From: Spiroplasma platyhelix PALS-1
GTDB taxonomy: Bacteria; Bacillota_I; Bacilli_A; Mycoplasmatales; VBWQ01
Assembly (NCBI RefSeq): GCF_021496725.1
Contig: NZ_CP051215.1
Span: forward strand, 124,001-188,000
Reading direction: 5' to 3'
DNA length: 64,000 bases
Shown here: positions 26,690 through 61,458 of the stretch, piece after piece
Layout of the letters: every line of letters starts with the position of its first letter
Numbering within the stretch: the first letter of the stretch is position 1
The notes under the pieces: model-generated
The model's input: only the letters and a program-made list of their open reading frames with translations
The model's database searches: none
Told to the model about the DNA's origin: nothing
Program-made: the position numbers and the translations under genes

Positions 26690-28141
26690 ATGGCCAAAGG
26701 CTTTAATAAAAATATTACTTTAAGAAGTGTTGATTTTGCTAAATGATATACCAATGTTATTACAGAAGCAGATCTTTGTGACTATGGTGATAGTAGTGGT
26801 TCACCAAAAGGAACAATTATTTTTCGTCCTTATGGTTACGCACTTTGAGAAAATTTTCAACAAGAATTGAATCAACAATTTAAAAAATTAGGTGTACAAA
26901 ATGTGATGTTTCCATTGTTAATTAATGAAAAAACTTTTGCTTTAGAAAAAGATCATATCCAAGGTTTTGCACCAGAATGTGCAATAGTTACTCAAGTTGG
27001 TGATAAAAAATTACAAGAAAATTTAATTATTCGTCCAACTTCAGAAGTTTTATTTTGTTCACATTTTCAAAAAATAGTTAGCAGTTACAAGCAACTGCCA
27101 TTACTTTATAATCAATGAGTTAGTGTCGTTCGTTGAGAAAAATCAACTAGACCATTTTTACGTAATACAGAATTTTTATGACAAGAAGGTCATACAGTTC
27201 ACGCTCAAGAGCAAGAAGCCCTTGACCTTGTGCTGACAATAATTAATTTGTATGCTAGTTTTGTTGAAAAGTTCTTAGCGATTAAAGTGATTTTAGGTAA
27301 GAAAACAGTTCATGAACGTTTTGCTGGTGCTTTAGAAACTTACACTATTGAAACAATGATGCAAGATGGACAAGCATTACAAGCAGGTACTAGTCACTAT
27401 TTTGGTCAAAAGTTTGCTGAAATTTTCAACATTAAATTTAGTAACCAACAAAACAAACAAGAATTTGCTTATCAAACTTCTTGAGGAACTTCAACTCGCT
27501 TAATTGGAGCATTAGTGATGGCACATAGTGATGATTTAGGGTTGGTGCTACCTGCTTTGATTGCCCCAACTAAAATGGTGATTTTAAATTTAATGCCAAA
27601 AGATCAGCAAGTTAGTCAAGCAGTTGATAAGTTAGCAAAAACTTTAGCACAAAAGTATTCAATTAGTGTTGATGCAAGTGATAAAAGTGCTAGTTACAAA
27701 AAATCTGAAGCAACAATCAAAGGTATACCCTTAATAATTGAAGTTGGTCAACAAGAGCTAACAAAGCAAGAAATTAAAGTAACAGCAAGACATAATCTAC
27801 AAGCAACTTTTATCAGTATCAAAGATGAACAGCAACTTTTAGCTAGTCTTGATCAGATTTTAGCAAGTTCTAATCACGAGTTACTGCAAACTTCAACAAA
27901 TAATTTTAATAGTAACTTAAAAGAAGTTACTGATTTTAAAGAGTATCAAACTTTGATTAAAAATCATAAAGGTTACATCATTGCTCCTTTTTGTGGTGAT
28001 TTTCAATGTGAAGCAGAAATCAAAAATCTTACTAGTACTACTTCACGTTGTATACCGCTAACACCATATAAACCTAATGCTAAATGTTTTAAGTGTCAAA
28101 AAGATAATTGTCCTTGAACTTATTTTGCCCGTTCTTATTAG
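26690..28141 (+). CDS. proS: Prolyl-tRNA synthetase, eukaryote/archaea-type
   Basis: Charges tRNA-Pro. 483 residues, the short ProS type without the bacterial editing insertion. Motif 2 is in [20 protein letters not shown], the HxxxH-like EGHTVH follows, and motif 3 is near TSWGTSTRLIGA. The C-terminal Zn-binding tail is present: CIPL, CFKC and ending YFARSY, as in this type. ATG directly follows the previous stop (TAAATG). The inverted-repeat terminator starts on its stop codon. Confidence 0.95.
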
Positions 28142-29496: not shown

Positions 29497-29570
29497 GGGG
29501 GTGTAGTTTAGTGGTAGAACTTCGGCCTTCAGATCCGAGTGTGTGGGTTCGATTCCTGCCACCCCCGCCA
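29497..29570 (+). tRNA. tRNA-Trp (TCA), reads UGA
   Basis: Acceptor GGGGGTG pairs with CACCCCC, discriminator G73 (a Trp determinant), encoded CCA. The anticodon loop CTTCAGA gives anticodon TCA, the tRNA that decodes UGA as tryptophan in mollicutes. Two oddities: the C31/U39 pair closing the loop is a mismatch, and position 37 is G, not the usual A. Confidence 0.82.
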
Positions 29571-42515: not shown

Positions 42516-43874
42516 ATGAATCCAGTTGAACCTGAATCCATCAGTAATTGATGGCAGAATTTAAAATTAAAAAAACAAAATTTTCAATTTGCTAAGACAA
42601 AATTTATCTCTGATAAATCAGAAGCAAAAGTTAAGATTGTGCACTTATTGAATGATAAGATTGAACCTGTTAGCCAAATACCAAATTTTGGGTTGATTGT
42701 TTTAAATCAAACGATTTTAAACAGTCATGATAAAACAAGTATTGCTGAGCAAGGATTTATTAGTAGTGATTTCTTTAAAGCTAAAATCATTGATGTTGAT
42801 AGTACAACTGTTAAGGGTGTTTATTTTCATTTAGTCAAAGTTATTTCTGGCATCATCACTATTAGTGAAGATTATGAGTTAACATTAACTACTGATGAAT
42901 ATTTTTGTCAGCAATTATTTGATAATAAATTAGCAGTTAAATTATTTAATTTATTTTTACATCATAATTTTGCTATTTCAGAAGATGTAATTAAAAAGAT
43001 TAGCGTTAGAATTGATGATGATATCTTTACTTTAAAATTTAATAAGAAATTAAATATCAGTAAAGAGATGATTTTTCAAACGCGAGATGCAATTAATCAA
43101 TGCCTAGAAAATAAGCGATTGAACTATCAAAAATATCCTTTTTTAAAAGATGAGTTAACTAAGTTAGAAAAGGAACGTCTAACAAAACTTGAATTGATTG
43201 AAGTTAAAAATTTTACAACACAAAAAAATAATTTTACTGTTGATTTTTTAGTCGGAAAAGAAAAGATTAGTGATTTCTTTATCAATAGCAAAAAAGAGTT
43301 ATTTGCTGGCATAAAAATGATTAACCAAAAAATAAAAGTAATTAGTAGTGATAAAATTTCTGAATTTTATCCTGAGTTGATTGTTGACACTTATGAAAAA
43401 TTAGAACAATTAAATCATGATTATCTAAAATTAAAAGATGATTTCACTAATTTTCAAAATAAAAATCCTGAGTTGATGAAGAACTTTATCAATGATTCAA
43501 TTGAAACTCAGTATTCAGAAAAAATTGGAGACTATCAATTTATTCATATTAATTTTAATAATCTGTTGTTAGATCAAGATTTACTAGCATCAAAGGCAGC
43601 AGAAAAAATTCAAACAGCTGATGATCAAATTTTATTTTTATCTAATAATAATCTTGCTAATTCGATGGTTATTTTAAAAATTAGTCAGAATTTAATTAGC
43701 GAGATTAATATCACACCATTAGTAAATCAATTTTCTAATGTCTCTTTTAAAGCAATTAATTACAATCAAGAACAAGATGGTGTTTTTATTGAAGCAGATA
43801 ACTATCAAGTAATTAACGATTTTATCAGAAACATCATCAACTTCTTTAAAATTAGTAACAATCAAACAATTTAA
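42516..43874 (+). CDS. Orphan AlaRS-like protein (editing and C-Ala regions only)
   Basis: No assigned function. 452 residues. It resembles the second half of alanyl-tRNA synthetase without the aminoacylation domain. About residues 58-80 read LIVLNQTILNSHDKTSIAEQ, comparable to the AlaRS block VLDQTPFYAESGGQ. YFHLVKVISGIITISEDYEL follows the AlaRS H-x-G-x-V-x-x-G-x-I-x-x-G-D pattern. The HHNF region at about 150 occupies the place of the HSATHLL block. A coiled coil (about 190-320) leads to a C-terminal part with some DHHA1-like order. The four Zn ligands (HxxxH and CxxxH) are missing, so editing activity is doubtful. Between tpiA and gpmI, with AAGGAGC upstream. Confidence 0.68.
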
Positions 43875-48111: not shown

Positions 48112-50052
48112 ATGGAAGTTAAAATTTTAAATCAACAAAATCAAGAGCAAATTGTCAAGTTTAGTGACAAGATTTCAGGGTACGATTTATTAAATCAATA
48201 TGCAAAAGAACAAAATAAAAATGATATCGTAGCATTTTCTGTTGACAATCAAGTTAGAGATTTATTTTCTCATGTTAGCAATGATGCAACAGTTAAATTT
48301 ATTTACAAGCAAGATCAAGAAGGTTGAAAAGTTTTAAATTATAGCTGTGCCTTAGTTTTGGCTTATGTTGTGAAGAAGTTGTATCCAAAAGCAACAATTG
48401 CTGTGGCACAAAATACTGATACTGGGTTCTACTTAGATTTTGATTATCAAAAGCAATTGAAACAAGAAGATTTATTAAAAATAAGTACTGAGATGAGTAA
48501 GGTACTGCAAACAAAATTAGCAATTACTCATAGCTGTCAACAACTACCAGAAGTATTGGATTTATATAAAAATAATCCTTTTGCCCAACAATATGCTGAA
48601 TTGACTCACATCAATGGTCGTAAAGCATCTTATTTAGTTGACAACAAAACTAAAGTGATTGCATCAGGAGTAGCAATTAGTACTAGTTCACCAATTAAGT
48701 ATTTTCAACTAACAAGTGTTACTGGAGCTTATTGATTAGGTGATGATAAGAATAAACAATTACAAAGAATTAGTGGTATTTGTGACTGGGAAAAAGAAGG
48801 GCTAGTAGCAAAAATCGCTGAGATTGAAAAAAGAAAAAGTTACGATCATCGTGTTCTTGGTAAGAAGTTAAATATCTTTATGTTCAATGATGAAGTAGGT
48901 AAGGGTCTACCAATTTTTTTACCTAATGGTATGACAATTAAGAAAACTTTACAAGCTTATTTAAGAGAACAAGAATTTAAATGAGACTATCAAGAAGTAA
49001 GCACACCAGTGCTTGGTTCAGTTGAATTATATAAAAAGAGTGGTCACTGAGACCACTATCAAGAAAATATGTTTGCACCAATTGTCAACGATAACGAACA
49101 ATTAGTACTTCGACCAATGACTTGTCCACATCATTGTATGATTTATCAATCAGTGCCACGTTCTTATCGTGACTTACCAATTCGTTTAAGTGAACATGCT
49201 TTATTGTATCGCTATGAAACAAGTGGAGCACTGACAGGATTAGAACGAGTTCGTTCAATGGAACTAAGTGACTCTCATATCTTTGTTCGTCTTGATCAAA
49301 TTAAAGAAGAATTTAAGCGTTGCTACCATTTGATAACTGAAGTTTTAGAAACTTTAAACATCAAAATATCTTATTTCTCTCTATCTTTAAGAGATCCAGA
49401 AGATAAAGAAAAATATTATAATGATGATCAAATGTGAGATCATGCTGAGAATGAATTAAGAGAAGTACTAAATGAATTAAAGATTGACTATCAAGAGATG
49501 ATTGGTGAAGCTGCATTTTATGGGCCAAAATTTGATATTCAAATCAAAACACCTTTAGGTCATGAAGTAACAATTTCAACAATTCAATTCGACTTTTTAC
49601 TACCAAAAAGATTTGAACTAACATATATCGACAATAAGAACCGCGAAATGAGTCCTGTCATCATTCATCGAGGGTTGATTGGTACTTATGAACGTTTTAT
49701 TGCAACTTTATTAGAGCAAACTCAAGGAGTTTTTCCTTTATGACTTGCTTTTCAACAAGTAGCTATTCTACCAATTAATGATAGTGAAGTAATTAGTCAG
49801 TATACTGAAGAAATTCATAATGCTTTAAAAGCAAAAAATATTCGTAGTGAGATAGTGAAAGAAGATACTTTAGGAAAAAGAATTAGATTAGTTCATGAGA
49901 ATAAAATTCCTTATGTTCTGATTATTGGAGCAAAAGAGCAACAAGCTAAGAATCTAACTTATCATACTTATAAAGAACAAAAAGATAACAAAACCTTAAG
50001 TAAAGAAGAATTTATTAAGTTATTAGAAAAAGAAATTATTGCAAAAAAATAA
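48112..50052 (+). CDS. thrS: Threonyl-tRNA synthetase with inactivated editing site
   Basis: Charges tRNA-Thr. 646 residues: N-terminal TGS domain, N2 editing domain (about 65-230), class II catalytic core and anticodon domain. The three catalytic Zn ligands are present: Cys in RPMTCPHH, His in ELSDSHIF and His in [10 protein letters not shown]. The editing site is not: the HxxxH ligands are Tyr77 and Leu81 (NYSCALVL) and the CxxxH ligands are Ala184 and Ala188 (IASGVAIST), judged by register to VTGAYWLGD. Mischarged Ser-tRNA-Thr would not be cleared. GAGGATAG precedes ATG 48112; no T-box is visible. Confidence 0.95.
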
Positions 50053-57939: not shown

Positions 57940-59007
57940 ATGAAAGATATTAATAAAATTAAAGAGCATTTAAAGAAAATTTCAACAGATGCAAAAGCAG
58001 ATGTTAAGAAAAATTCTGAAGTTAATTTTTTGCATTTTTTAAAGTCAAAGTATTTAGGAAAAAAATCTGCATTTAGTGATGTTCTAAAATCATTAACTAA
58101 TTTTGATGATAATCAAAAATCTGAACTTGGTAAATTAGTAAATAATTTTAAAATGGAAATTATGGAGTTAATTAATGAAAAAATTGTTAAGCTTGAACAA
58201 GAAAAATTAGAAAAGGAATTAAAAGAAAATAAGATTGATGTGACGCTACCAGGGATTGGTTTACAAGTTGGTTATCGTAATCCATTATTTTTGGTGATTG
58301 ATGAGATTACAACAATTTTTAAAAATTTAGGCTATCAAGTAATTAGCGGTACTGAAGTTGACAATGAAGAATATAATTTTAATCGTTTGAATTTACCTGA
58401 AAATCATCCAGCAAGAGCGATGCAAGATACATTTTATTTAAATGATACTCGTAAAGGTAAGAATCGTATGTTGTTGAGAACACATTGTACAAACATGACA
58501 GCAAGAATCCTATCATTAGTAAATAAAGATATGAAAGAACCTTTAGCATATATCAGTTTAGGAAATGTTTATCGTAAAGATGATGATGATGCAACGCATA
58601 GTCATCAGTTTATGCAAATGGATGCTTTTTTAGCAGGTCATGGTGTGACTTTTGCTAATTTGAAGTGAACATTAGAATATTTCTGTCAGAAATTATTTAA
58701 AGCAGATAGTAAGATTCGTTTGCGTCCAAGTTTCTTCCCTTTTACTGAACCTTCTGCTGAAGTTGATGTTAGTTGTCCAATTTGTGGTGGTCGAGGTTGT
58801 GCTTTATGTAAGCATACTGGTTGAATTGAAATTTTAGGAGCAGGGATGATTCATCCTAATGTTTTTCATGCTTGTGGCATTAAAGATCCTAATATTACTG
58901 GTTTTGCTTTTGGTGTTGGAATTGAAAGAATTGCCATGATTAAATATAGTATCGATGATATCAGATTATTTTATAGTAACGATTTACGTTTTTTAAAACA
59001 ATTTTAG
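57940..59007 (+). CDS. pheS: Phenylalanyl-tRNA synthetase alpha subunit
   Basis: Catalytic subunit. 355 residues. N-terminal coiled coil (1-100), then [35 protein letters not shown] (motif 2 region), RRFD-type [25 protein letters not shown], a Cys cluster [25 protein letters not shown] and [12 protein letters not shown] (motif 3). Length and blocks are normal. pheT follows 21 nt later. Confidence 0.95.
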
Positions 59008-59028: not shown

Positions 59029-61458
59029 ATGGTAGTTTCAAAGAGAATACTTAATCAATGAATAGATGTTAGAAAAATTAAAGATCAAGAAATTGCTAAA
59101 GCATTAAACAGTTTAGGATTCGAGGTTGATAAGGTAGTTAATTTAACTACTACTAACACTAATTTAATTGTTGGTGAGATTTTAAAAATTGAAGAACATC
59201 CAAAAAGTAAGAAATTAAATCTTTGTTATGTCAACATTGGAAGAAAGATTGTCAAAATTATTTGTGGCGCAAGTAATGTTCGAGTAGGAATTAAAGTGGT
59301 TGTAGCTCAGGTTGGTAGTAAGTTAGCAAATGATTTGGTGATTGATCACAGAGAAATTTTAGGTGTGATGTCTCATGGGATGATTTGTTCATTATCAGAA
59401 CTTGGCTTGAATCCTGAAGTGCTATCAGAAGAAGAATTAGCAGGAATTGTTTACTTGCCTGATGATGCTCCAGTTGGTAGTTTAAGTCCCTTACATTATT
59501 TAGAATTAGATGATTCAATTTTTGAAATTCAATTGACATTAAATCGTAGTGACTGTTTGGCTATGTATTATCTAGCTAAAGAATTAAGTCACTACTTTAA
59601 GTTGCCATTAAAAAAGATTGCTGTTAGCAATTTTAGCAACATTCAAACAAGCAAACAAAGTAAGCATGAATTCATTCATGCTTTAGGAACATTGAAAATT
59701 AATTTATTAAATCATGGTCAAATTGACGAAAGTTGAATTAAAAGAACTTTGCAACTAACAAATATCAAACCAAAATCATTCTTTGATAACTTAGTTAGCA
59801 TTGTGATGTTAGAGTTGGGTCAACCAGCTGTTGTTTTTGCAGCTGATAATTTAGAAGATTTTAAAATTACTTTAGCAAATAAAGATTATCTAACAAAAAG
59901 TTTTCAATTTTTTAAAAATGATATTGTGTTTAGTAATAAAGAACAATATTTTAGTAACTTAGCAGTTTCAACACTATCAGATTATTTTGTTGAGCCAAAA
60001 ACTAAAGCTTTAGTTTTTGCTTCATTAAATTTAGATGGTGATTTAGTACAAGATCAAATCAAACGTAATAGTTTCAATCCAAGTAATTTATTCTTACAAA
60101 GACTAAACAAACCAATTGTGCCAGTAAATTATTTACTTGTGTTACAAAGAATTTTATTCTTATTGCATCAATTTCATATCAAATTTGAAGTTGTTAGTTT
60201 TGTTAATGAGGTGAACTATCAATTAAAAGATAACTCACGCACAATTAACTATCAAATGATTAATAAACTTTTAGGAACAAATTTAAGTTTAGCTGAGATT
60301 GTTAGTGCTTTAAACACAATTGGTTGTAAGGTACTAAAAAAATCAAAACTATCAGGAATAATGAAGATTAAGATTCCGAGTTATCGAAATGATTTGAATA
60401 ATGTCAACGATTTTACTGAAGAAGTAGCAAGAGTTGTTGGATACAATAATTTGCCAAAAATTAAACCAAAATTTGTCATCAGAGCTGAACCATTAAGTAA
60501 CTTACAAATTCTTTTAGCCGATATGAAAAAATATCTATTGGATTATGGCTTTCATCAAGTGAAGACTTACAACTTAACTAATAAAGATACGCTAGCAGAC
60601 TTTAACTTTTTTGGTTACAAAAAACCAATTACTTTAATTGCTCCAATTAATTTAGCAAGAAAAGCAATGCGTTTTAGTTTGTTACCTAGTTTATTAGAAA
60701 TTTGTCGCTTGAATGCTAGTTTCAAGCAGGATAGTTTAAAAGTATTTACTGATGAAGTGATTTATAACAATGATCCAGAAGCAGTAGAACATGCTAATCA
60801 TCATTTAGCTTTTGTTGTCAACAATGATTTCTTTGATGTGCAAAATTATTTTAATCCTAATTCTGAAAAGTCTAATAATTATTTACTAATTAAAGGATTT
60901 TTAGCAGCTTGATTCACTAAGCAAGGGGGTAAGGAATTTAATGATGCCTTAACTTATCATAGTTTTGATCAAGAAACAATTCACCCTTATTTGAGTAGTA
61001 AAATAAAGTATAATAATATTCATTTTGCAACAATTGCAGCTTTACACCCAGAAATTGCTGAAAGAATTGCTTTAAGTAAGCAAGTATTTTTAGTAGAGAT
61101 TAATTTTACTGAATTAGTAGCTATTTTTGCTGAGTTGAAAGACAAGCAAGTAGTGAAATATAAAAGTTGATCAAAGTTTAATCCATTAAGTAGAGATTTA
61201 TCAATTATCATTAGTAGTAATGTTGAATATGAAGATGTTAAGAATGTGATTTGAGCAGCAAGAACTAAATACTTGCAAAACCTAACTTTAATTGATATTT
61301 ATTCAGATGAAGTTTTAAAGCATAAAAAGAAACATTCTTTAACTTTTAATTTAGAATTTAATAGTAAAAAAGAACAATTAGATGAAGATAGAGTTAGTCA
61401 AGAAATTAAAATGATTCAAAGCCTAATGCAACAAAGGTTTAATGCAGAGATTCGTTAG
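59029..61458 (+). CDS. pheT: Phenylalanyl-tRNA synthetase beta subunit, degenerate editing site
   Basis: 809 residues: EMAP-like tRNA-binding domain (about 45-155; HPKSKKLNLCYVNIG), B5 and core-like domains (SYRNDLNNVNDFTEEVAR, GYNNLP) and a C-terminal anticodon-binding domain (FNPLSRDLSIII). The B3/B4 editing domain is eroded. The segment normally GQPLHAFD reads GQPAVVFA (Val268 for the editing His), and the catalytic Glu of the T-x4-LE block is Ala331 (TKALVFASL). Tyr-tRNA-Phe clearance should be lost, as reported for mycoplasma PheRS. Confidence 0.93.

Follow-up and report, generated by a model that had tools for sequence, protein, structure and literature searches.

The closest described system is the phenylalanyl-tRNA synthetase (PheRS) of Mycoplasma mobile, reportedly found to be editing-deficient in work by Li et al. 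2011 and by Yadavalli and Ibba 2013. Like the enzyme of this study, it is a mollicute PheRS, encoded by the reduced genome of a host-associated organism, and the B3/B4 editing site of its beta subunit has degenerated. However, its defect was established by biochemical and proteomic work, whereas here it is read from sequence only, and in the present case the whole clade shares the loss, which is accompanied by one in ThrRS, while the editing residues of LeuRS are kept. PMC10057733 reports that loss of LeuRS and PheRS editing in Mycoplasma was confirmed biochemically, with Tyr at Phe codons. PMC4014445 describes altered editing domains of LeuRS, PheRS and ThrRS in several Mycoplasma species, and a mollicute ProRS without a cis-editing domain. 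Editing loss of these three synthetases in mycoplasmas is already in print (PMC4014445, PMC7373986); in the open-licence PMC literature I found no paper specifically on PheRS editing loss in Spiroplasma.

The window, by which I mean the whole 64-kb stretch of DNA that was analysed (GC content about 29%, from a genome of 744,499 bases), contains adjacent pheS and pheT genes. It is mollicute DNA in which UGA encodes Trp, as long frames including that of pheT are open only in code 4 and a tRNA with anticodon tca is found at 29497. ARAGORN labels this tRNA, at 29497-29570, as tRNA-SeC (tca), but given the use of UGA it is most likely tRNA-Trp(UCA). The features of the PheRS locus are as follows.

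57940..59007, + strand: pheS, PheRS alpha subunit (TIGR00468, 323.7 bits; aligned to E. coli PheS)
59029..61458, + strand: pheT, PheRS beta subunit, 809 aa with five UGA=Trp codons (TIGR00472, 502.8 bits, cut-off 402.65)
59614..60234, + strand: B3/B4 domain of PheT, residues 196-402 (AlphaFold2 pLDDT 85.8; Foldseek), with its fold apparently kept and its pocket residues lost
59794..59799, + strand: Val256 and Ser257 of PheT, aligned at Thermus Thr249/Asn250 (E. coli 253/254; roles of the positions from PMC3275996)
59830..59832, + strand: Val268 of PheT (GTT), at E. coli His265 / Thermus His261
59962..59964, + strand: Ala312 of PheT, at Thermus Gly315
59986..59988, + strand: Phe320 of PheT, at Thermus Glu323
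60019..60021, + strand: Ala331 of PheT (GCT), at Glu334 of E. coli and Thermus (the position that reads the Tyr hydroxyl, PMC3275996)

PheT matches TIGR00472 over its full length (1-809 to 1-798 of the model), as a bacterial PheRS beta subunit does, and its Pfam domains follow each other in the order tRNA-binding, B3/B4, B5, core and FDX-ACB. It is not of the archaeal/eukaryotic type, as it scores 81.4 bits on TIGR00471 against a cut-off of 282.65. The subunit shares with its counterparts in E. coli and Thermus thermophilus the domain order, the B3/B4 fold and the Phe pocket of the alpha subunit, but differs from them in the editing pocket. I read it, with a probability of about 0.9, as the ordinary Spiroplasma PheRS beta subunit, the B3/B4 editing pocket of which would have been lost long ago. 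This is an instance of ordinary relaxed translation accuracy, resembling that of known mycoplasmas, and not a new system.

The original prediction placed an eroded B3/B4 editing site at 59806-60030, an interval that on translation with code 4 covers PheT codons 260-334, and this is borne out. All six pocket positions differ from Thermus, with V256, S257, V268, A312, F320 and A331 standing for Thr249, Asn250, His261, Gly315, Glu323 and Glu334 (the positions are those named for Thermus in PMC3275996, and I transferred their numbering to E. coli columns). PheT thus resembles an editing-deficient mollicute PheRS in its pocket, and lacks the His and Glu of an editing-proficient bacterial one. When 116 PheT rows are aligned with MAFFT (121 loci minus the five repeats L054, L056, L059, L092 and L094, with E. 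coli L121 as row EC), Val268 does take the place of the editing His, aligning with E. coli His265 (GQPMHAF vs. GQPAVVF), and Ala331 falls on Glu334; both E. coli letters were confirmed on pheT of NC_000913.3. The predicted loss of a 'catalytic Glu' was correct as to position, but the adjective is too strong, because, according to PMC3275996, Glu334 serves to recognise the Tyr hydroxyl, and the triad centred on the His is positional more than catalytic.

The loss of these residues is more than chance, since His and Glu are both present in 18 of 18 rows of the same class outside the order and in 30 of 30 named non-Spiroplasma loci, and absent from both named Spiroplasma loci (32 of 80 fetched loci were used in this comparison). 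The six positions do not carry equal weight. Four of them are conserved in 18/18 same-class rows, while the Thr249 and Glu323 columns are weak evidence, because Bacilli mostly show Ser in the first and Lys in the second, where E. coli has Gly. The alignment itself is also doubtful at columns like Glu323, since the B3/B4 region shares only 14-21% identity with Bacilli. This low identity, together with a Pfam B3_4 score of 24.6 bits, which is under the cut-off of 29.3, would be expected if the domain were misaligned or the sequence in error and the true His and Glu lay elsewhere in the domain. However, the GQP anchor is invariant in a nine-row alignment, eight other genomes of family f1 likewise lack both residues, and pheT has no frame break, which makes such an error extremely improbable.

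The absence of the His alone proves nothing, because archaeal and eukaryotic PheRS carry Gly at this position and nevertheless edit, according to PMC3275996. The cytosolic PheRS of archaea and eukaryotes resembles the present enzyme in lacking the His at the bacterial position, but it edits with another residue set and the PheT of the window is of the bacterial type. The case for a putatively dead site rests jointly on the loss of Glu334 and of the other pocket residues, and Tyr-tRNA-Phe editing by this PheRS is very probably absent.

The residues that took the place of His and Glu are of one kind. Among the site-less rows of families f1, f2 and f31, the column of residue 265 holds I in 28, L in 9, V in 6 and M in 2 rows, and that of residue 334 holds V in 13, L in 11, I in 10, F in 9, A in 1 and M in 1, such that both are hydrophobic in 45/45 rows; the letters concerned make up 38% of the site-less PheT proteins. 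On a 27-row tree the two columns changed at least 7 and 9 times, respectively. An AlphaFold2 model of residues 196-402 reached a mean pLDDT of 85.8 and a pTM of 0.85, from an alignment in which 30/33 rows bear the site, which may bias the model toward the canonical fold. Foldseek matched this model best to bacterial PheRS beta chains, with TMq values of 0.74-0.81 among the first 27 rows, one of which (9a5b) is an integrative model.

With respect to selection, 13 pairs from lineages without the site gave dN/dS values of 0.11 to 0.53 for B3/B4, and the ratio of dN in B3/B4 to that in the rest of the protein had a median of 0.94 in these pairs, compared with 0.93 in 12 site-bearing ones. The 26 pairs were chosen and the medians taken by hand, with the site-bearing pair L050/L051, which shows no difference in B3/B4, outside the median. 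In the two pairs that include the window's own PheT, B3/B4 evolves somewhat faster than the rest (1.38 and 1.44). The length of the domain is 175-182 aa in 47/47 rows of f1, f2 and f31. I dropped the view of B3/B4 as a freely decaying relic, as its relative dN is close to that seen in lineages with the site and its length is near-constant; with the low dN/dS, this suggests a domain that is held. The fold thus appears to be kept, as modelled, and under purifying selection in the sampled pairs. A structural role, presumably as part of the heterotetramer, is most likely the simplest reason for its retention, and purifying selection could also reflect some remaining function of the site.

A stronger form of the latter idea is that the site was rebuilt, with other residues hydrolysing Tyr-tRNA-Phe or another mischarged product as in archaeal PheRS. 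The kept length and fold and a dN/dS well below 1 are what one would expect of such a site, and PMC3275996 gives a precedent in the archaeal and eukaryotic enzymes that edit without the His. Yet neither key column gained a new polar residue in any of the 45 site-less rows, and Glu334, the reader of the Tyr hydroxyl, is gone, and I regard a rebuilt site as highly unlikely. If, as I prefer, the pocket was simply lost, it would now probably be part of a hydrophobic core, unable to recognise or hydrolyse Tyr-tRNA-Phe. The Phe pocket of PheS is intact in the letters compared with E. coli PheS, with the Ala294-type residue (in GFAFG) and FPF both present, and Phe would still be selected there. Because this pocket is canonical, Phe-to-Tyr errors may be raised but would remain limited.

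Both His and Glu are absent from 9/9 PheT rows of f1, and, across f1, f2 and f31, which represent the order's Spiroplasma side, from 45 of 47 rows; genomes G488 (His/Glu) and G473 (Asn/Glu) are the exceptions. In families f3 and f4 most rows hold both residues, with scattered losses. All these counts refer to the sampled genomes, 158 from a larger order. In a tree calculated without the B3/B4 columns, for which 56 rows were picked by hand from the 116, the 27 site-less rows of f1, f31 and f2 form one clade (SH-aLRT 99, by a quick method), and the fewest state changes over the 56 rows is 4. Alignment and tree together show that the His and Glu positions turned hydrophobic in an ancestor that f1 and f31 share with most of f2. 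The loss of PheRS editing, as far as sequences can tell, is old and clade-wide and not private decay, and it can now be placed on the tree as an old event in a lineage that includes Spiroplasma, as opposed to a recent one.

Elsewhere in the order, the PheT proteins of family f33 (L076-L080) measure 644-678 aa and lack the C-terminal B8 (FDX-ACB) domain. A deletion of B3/B4 in this family was ruled out, as a domain shortened to 146-153 aa is present and B8 is what is absent. The match to TIGR00472 is weaker, partial or missing in the f4 genomes G430, G435, G438, G442, G444, G445, G466 and G475 (genera g206 and g209), in which PheRS may be highly divergent.

The PheT proteins of the two exceptional genomes, G488 (L038) and G473 (L039), both with the editing Glu, lie outside the clade of f1, f2 and f31. 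Trees in which all 29 rows of these three families were held together were rejected (p-AU 0.0044), as were those holding the 22 f2 rows together (p-AU 9.4e-5), both values being optimistic, since the grouping was chosen with the tree already in view. The PheT of G488 is nearest to that of non-mollicute Bacilli (482 bits and 37% with G253, among 296 class genomes searched) and far from those of 40 genomes drawn from the order (best E 7.8e-65). The ThrRS of G488 and G473 lacks the editing motif and groups with 16 other f2 rows. A gene replacement of PheT is the likely explanation, with retention of an ancestral copy as a possible alternative, and the replacement may have brought editing back.

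The original prediction regarded PheRS, together with ThrRS, a short ProRS and an AlaRS-like orphan, as signs of a broad loss of translational quality control in the window. The two further synthetases are the following.

48112..50052, + strand: thrS, 646 aa, with the editing motif HHKDCH changed to YLAVAA and no tRNA_SAD match
26690..28141, + strand: proS of family I (archaeal/eukaryotic type), 483 aa (TIGR00408, 486.1 bits, cut-off 437)

For ThrRS the predicted loss is confirmed, as E. coli H73, H77, K156, D180, C182 and H186 correspond to Y, L, A, V, A and A here, and the full motif was found in none of the f1, f2 and f31 ThrRS rows examined. However, the same genome keeps the editing residues of AlaRS (HHCH), ValRS (TRKD), IleRS (TTTTHD) and LeuRS (TSTD, with one Thr to Ser change), at the positions that matter for editing in these enzymes, as in ThrRS; repeats (L209, L212, L125 and L127 among others) and open reading frames below 380 aa were left out of these alignments. 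The losses in PheRS and ThrRS stand, but 'broad' does not, and the window as a sign of general quality-control loss was rejected, since four other editing synthetases keep their motifs. The loss is selective, with the proofreading residues for Thr and Phe gone and those for Ala, Val, Ile and Leu in place, and so offers a natural experiment on the kinds of translation error that cells can bear. The short ProRS does lack an editing insert, but this is a trait of its type (TIGR00408), in which the cis-editing domain is absent according to PMC4014445.

The clustering of lost sites in one window is accidental, because ValRS, the next editing synthetase, which starts at genome position 189456, about 1.5 kb to the right of the window end (188000), is intact. 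Of the trans-editing factors, neither DTD (PF02580) nor YbaK (PF04073) was matched in any of the nine f1 genomes (controls matched in 8/14 and 12/14, respectively); PMC4014445 states that homologues of YbaK, ProX and AlaX were not found in Mollicutes. Two editing sites gone in one lineage might alternatively be an adaptive loss, in which mistranslation at Phe and Thr codons was favoured in a host-associated lineage, an idea in print as the 'statistical proteome' (PMC4014445). However, a relaxed need for accuracy in a small host-associated genome explains the same facts equally well, and the present data do not separate the two; I consider adaptation unlikely. In another f1 genome, G428, contig C1 carries three copies of valS within 46 kb (1439164-1441634, 1466327-1468873 and 1482814-1485375), of which one is full-length, one has five stops other than TGA and one is split in two frames.

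According to PMC7373986, no Mycoplasma genome is known that has lost three or more of the LeuRS, PheRS and ThrRS editing activities. In two f33 genomes, G414 and G423, LeuRS measures 633 aa and its editing region is down to 10 residues, ThrRS lacks the motif, and PheT has neither residue, in a B3/B4 alignment that is uncertain for f33 (L399, L400, L403, L404, L078, L080). The f4 genome G496 shows EEND in LeuRS, NNFDK- in ThrRS and L/- in PheT (L416, L415, L120). These three genomes seem to have lost the LeuRS, ThrRS and PheRS sites together, several f33 and f4 genomes being less than 90% complete. The f31 genome G400 is site-less in PheT and ThrRS and has Asn at the column of LeuRS Asp345 (L407). 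If confirmed, the replacements and the three-site genomes bear on whether mistranslation has an upper limit. A combined reading, which I put forward tentatively and hold to be rather doubtful, would be that of a single loss in the ancestor of the order's Spiroplasma side, followed by selection of a hydrophobic-filled pseudo-editing domain for a non-editing task, reversible through PheT replacement in one or two later lineages (G488, G473), and with the triple-site loss in G414, G423 and G496 breaking the published limit of two.

The remaining element of the supposed broad loss is the orphan.

42516..43874, + strand: AlaX/AlaRS-editing-like orphan, 452 aa, with HxxxH and CGGTH gone (f2 homologues carry both)

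It is indeed a degenerate gene of the AlaX type, but it is separate from AlaRS, which keeps its HHCH residues. No Pfam or NCBIfam match was found for the orphan at 42516-43874. Relatives of it occur in 9/9 f1 genomes, with weaker matches in 7 of 149 others (16/158 in total). It reads NKLAVKLF for NHTAQHLL and has no CGGTH, and thus lacks HxxxH and CxxxH, which I take to be the metal/catalytic motifs of AlaX. Its f2 relative L260 has both NHTAQHLL and CGGTH, and scores 33.6 for tRNA_SAD (cut-off 24) and 97 for AlaXM (cut-off 300). The orphan is, by its sequence, a decayed relative of AlaX. Stand-alone AlaX/AlaRS-editing-like open reading frames of about 465 aa are present in some f2 (Spiroplasma-type) genomes (L259, L260, L264). 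HxxxH and CGGTH are retained in L259 and L260, while the f1 versions, including that of the window, are without them. Mollicutes are said to have no AlaX in PMC4014445, whereas AlaX-like open reading frames with intact motifs are observed here in f2.
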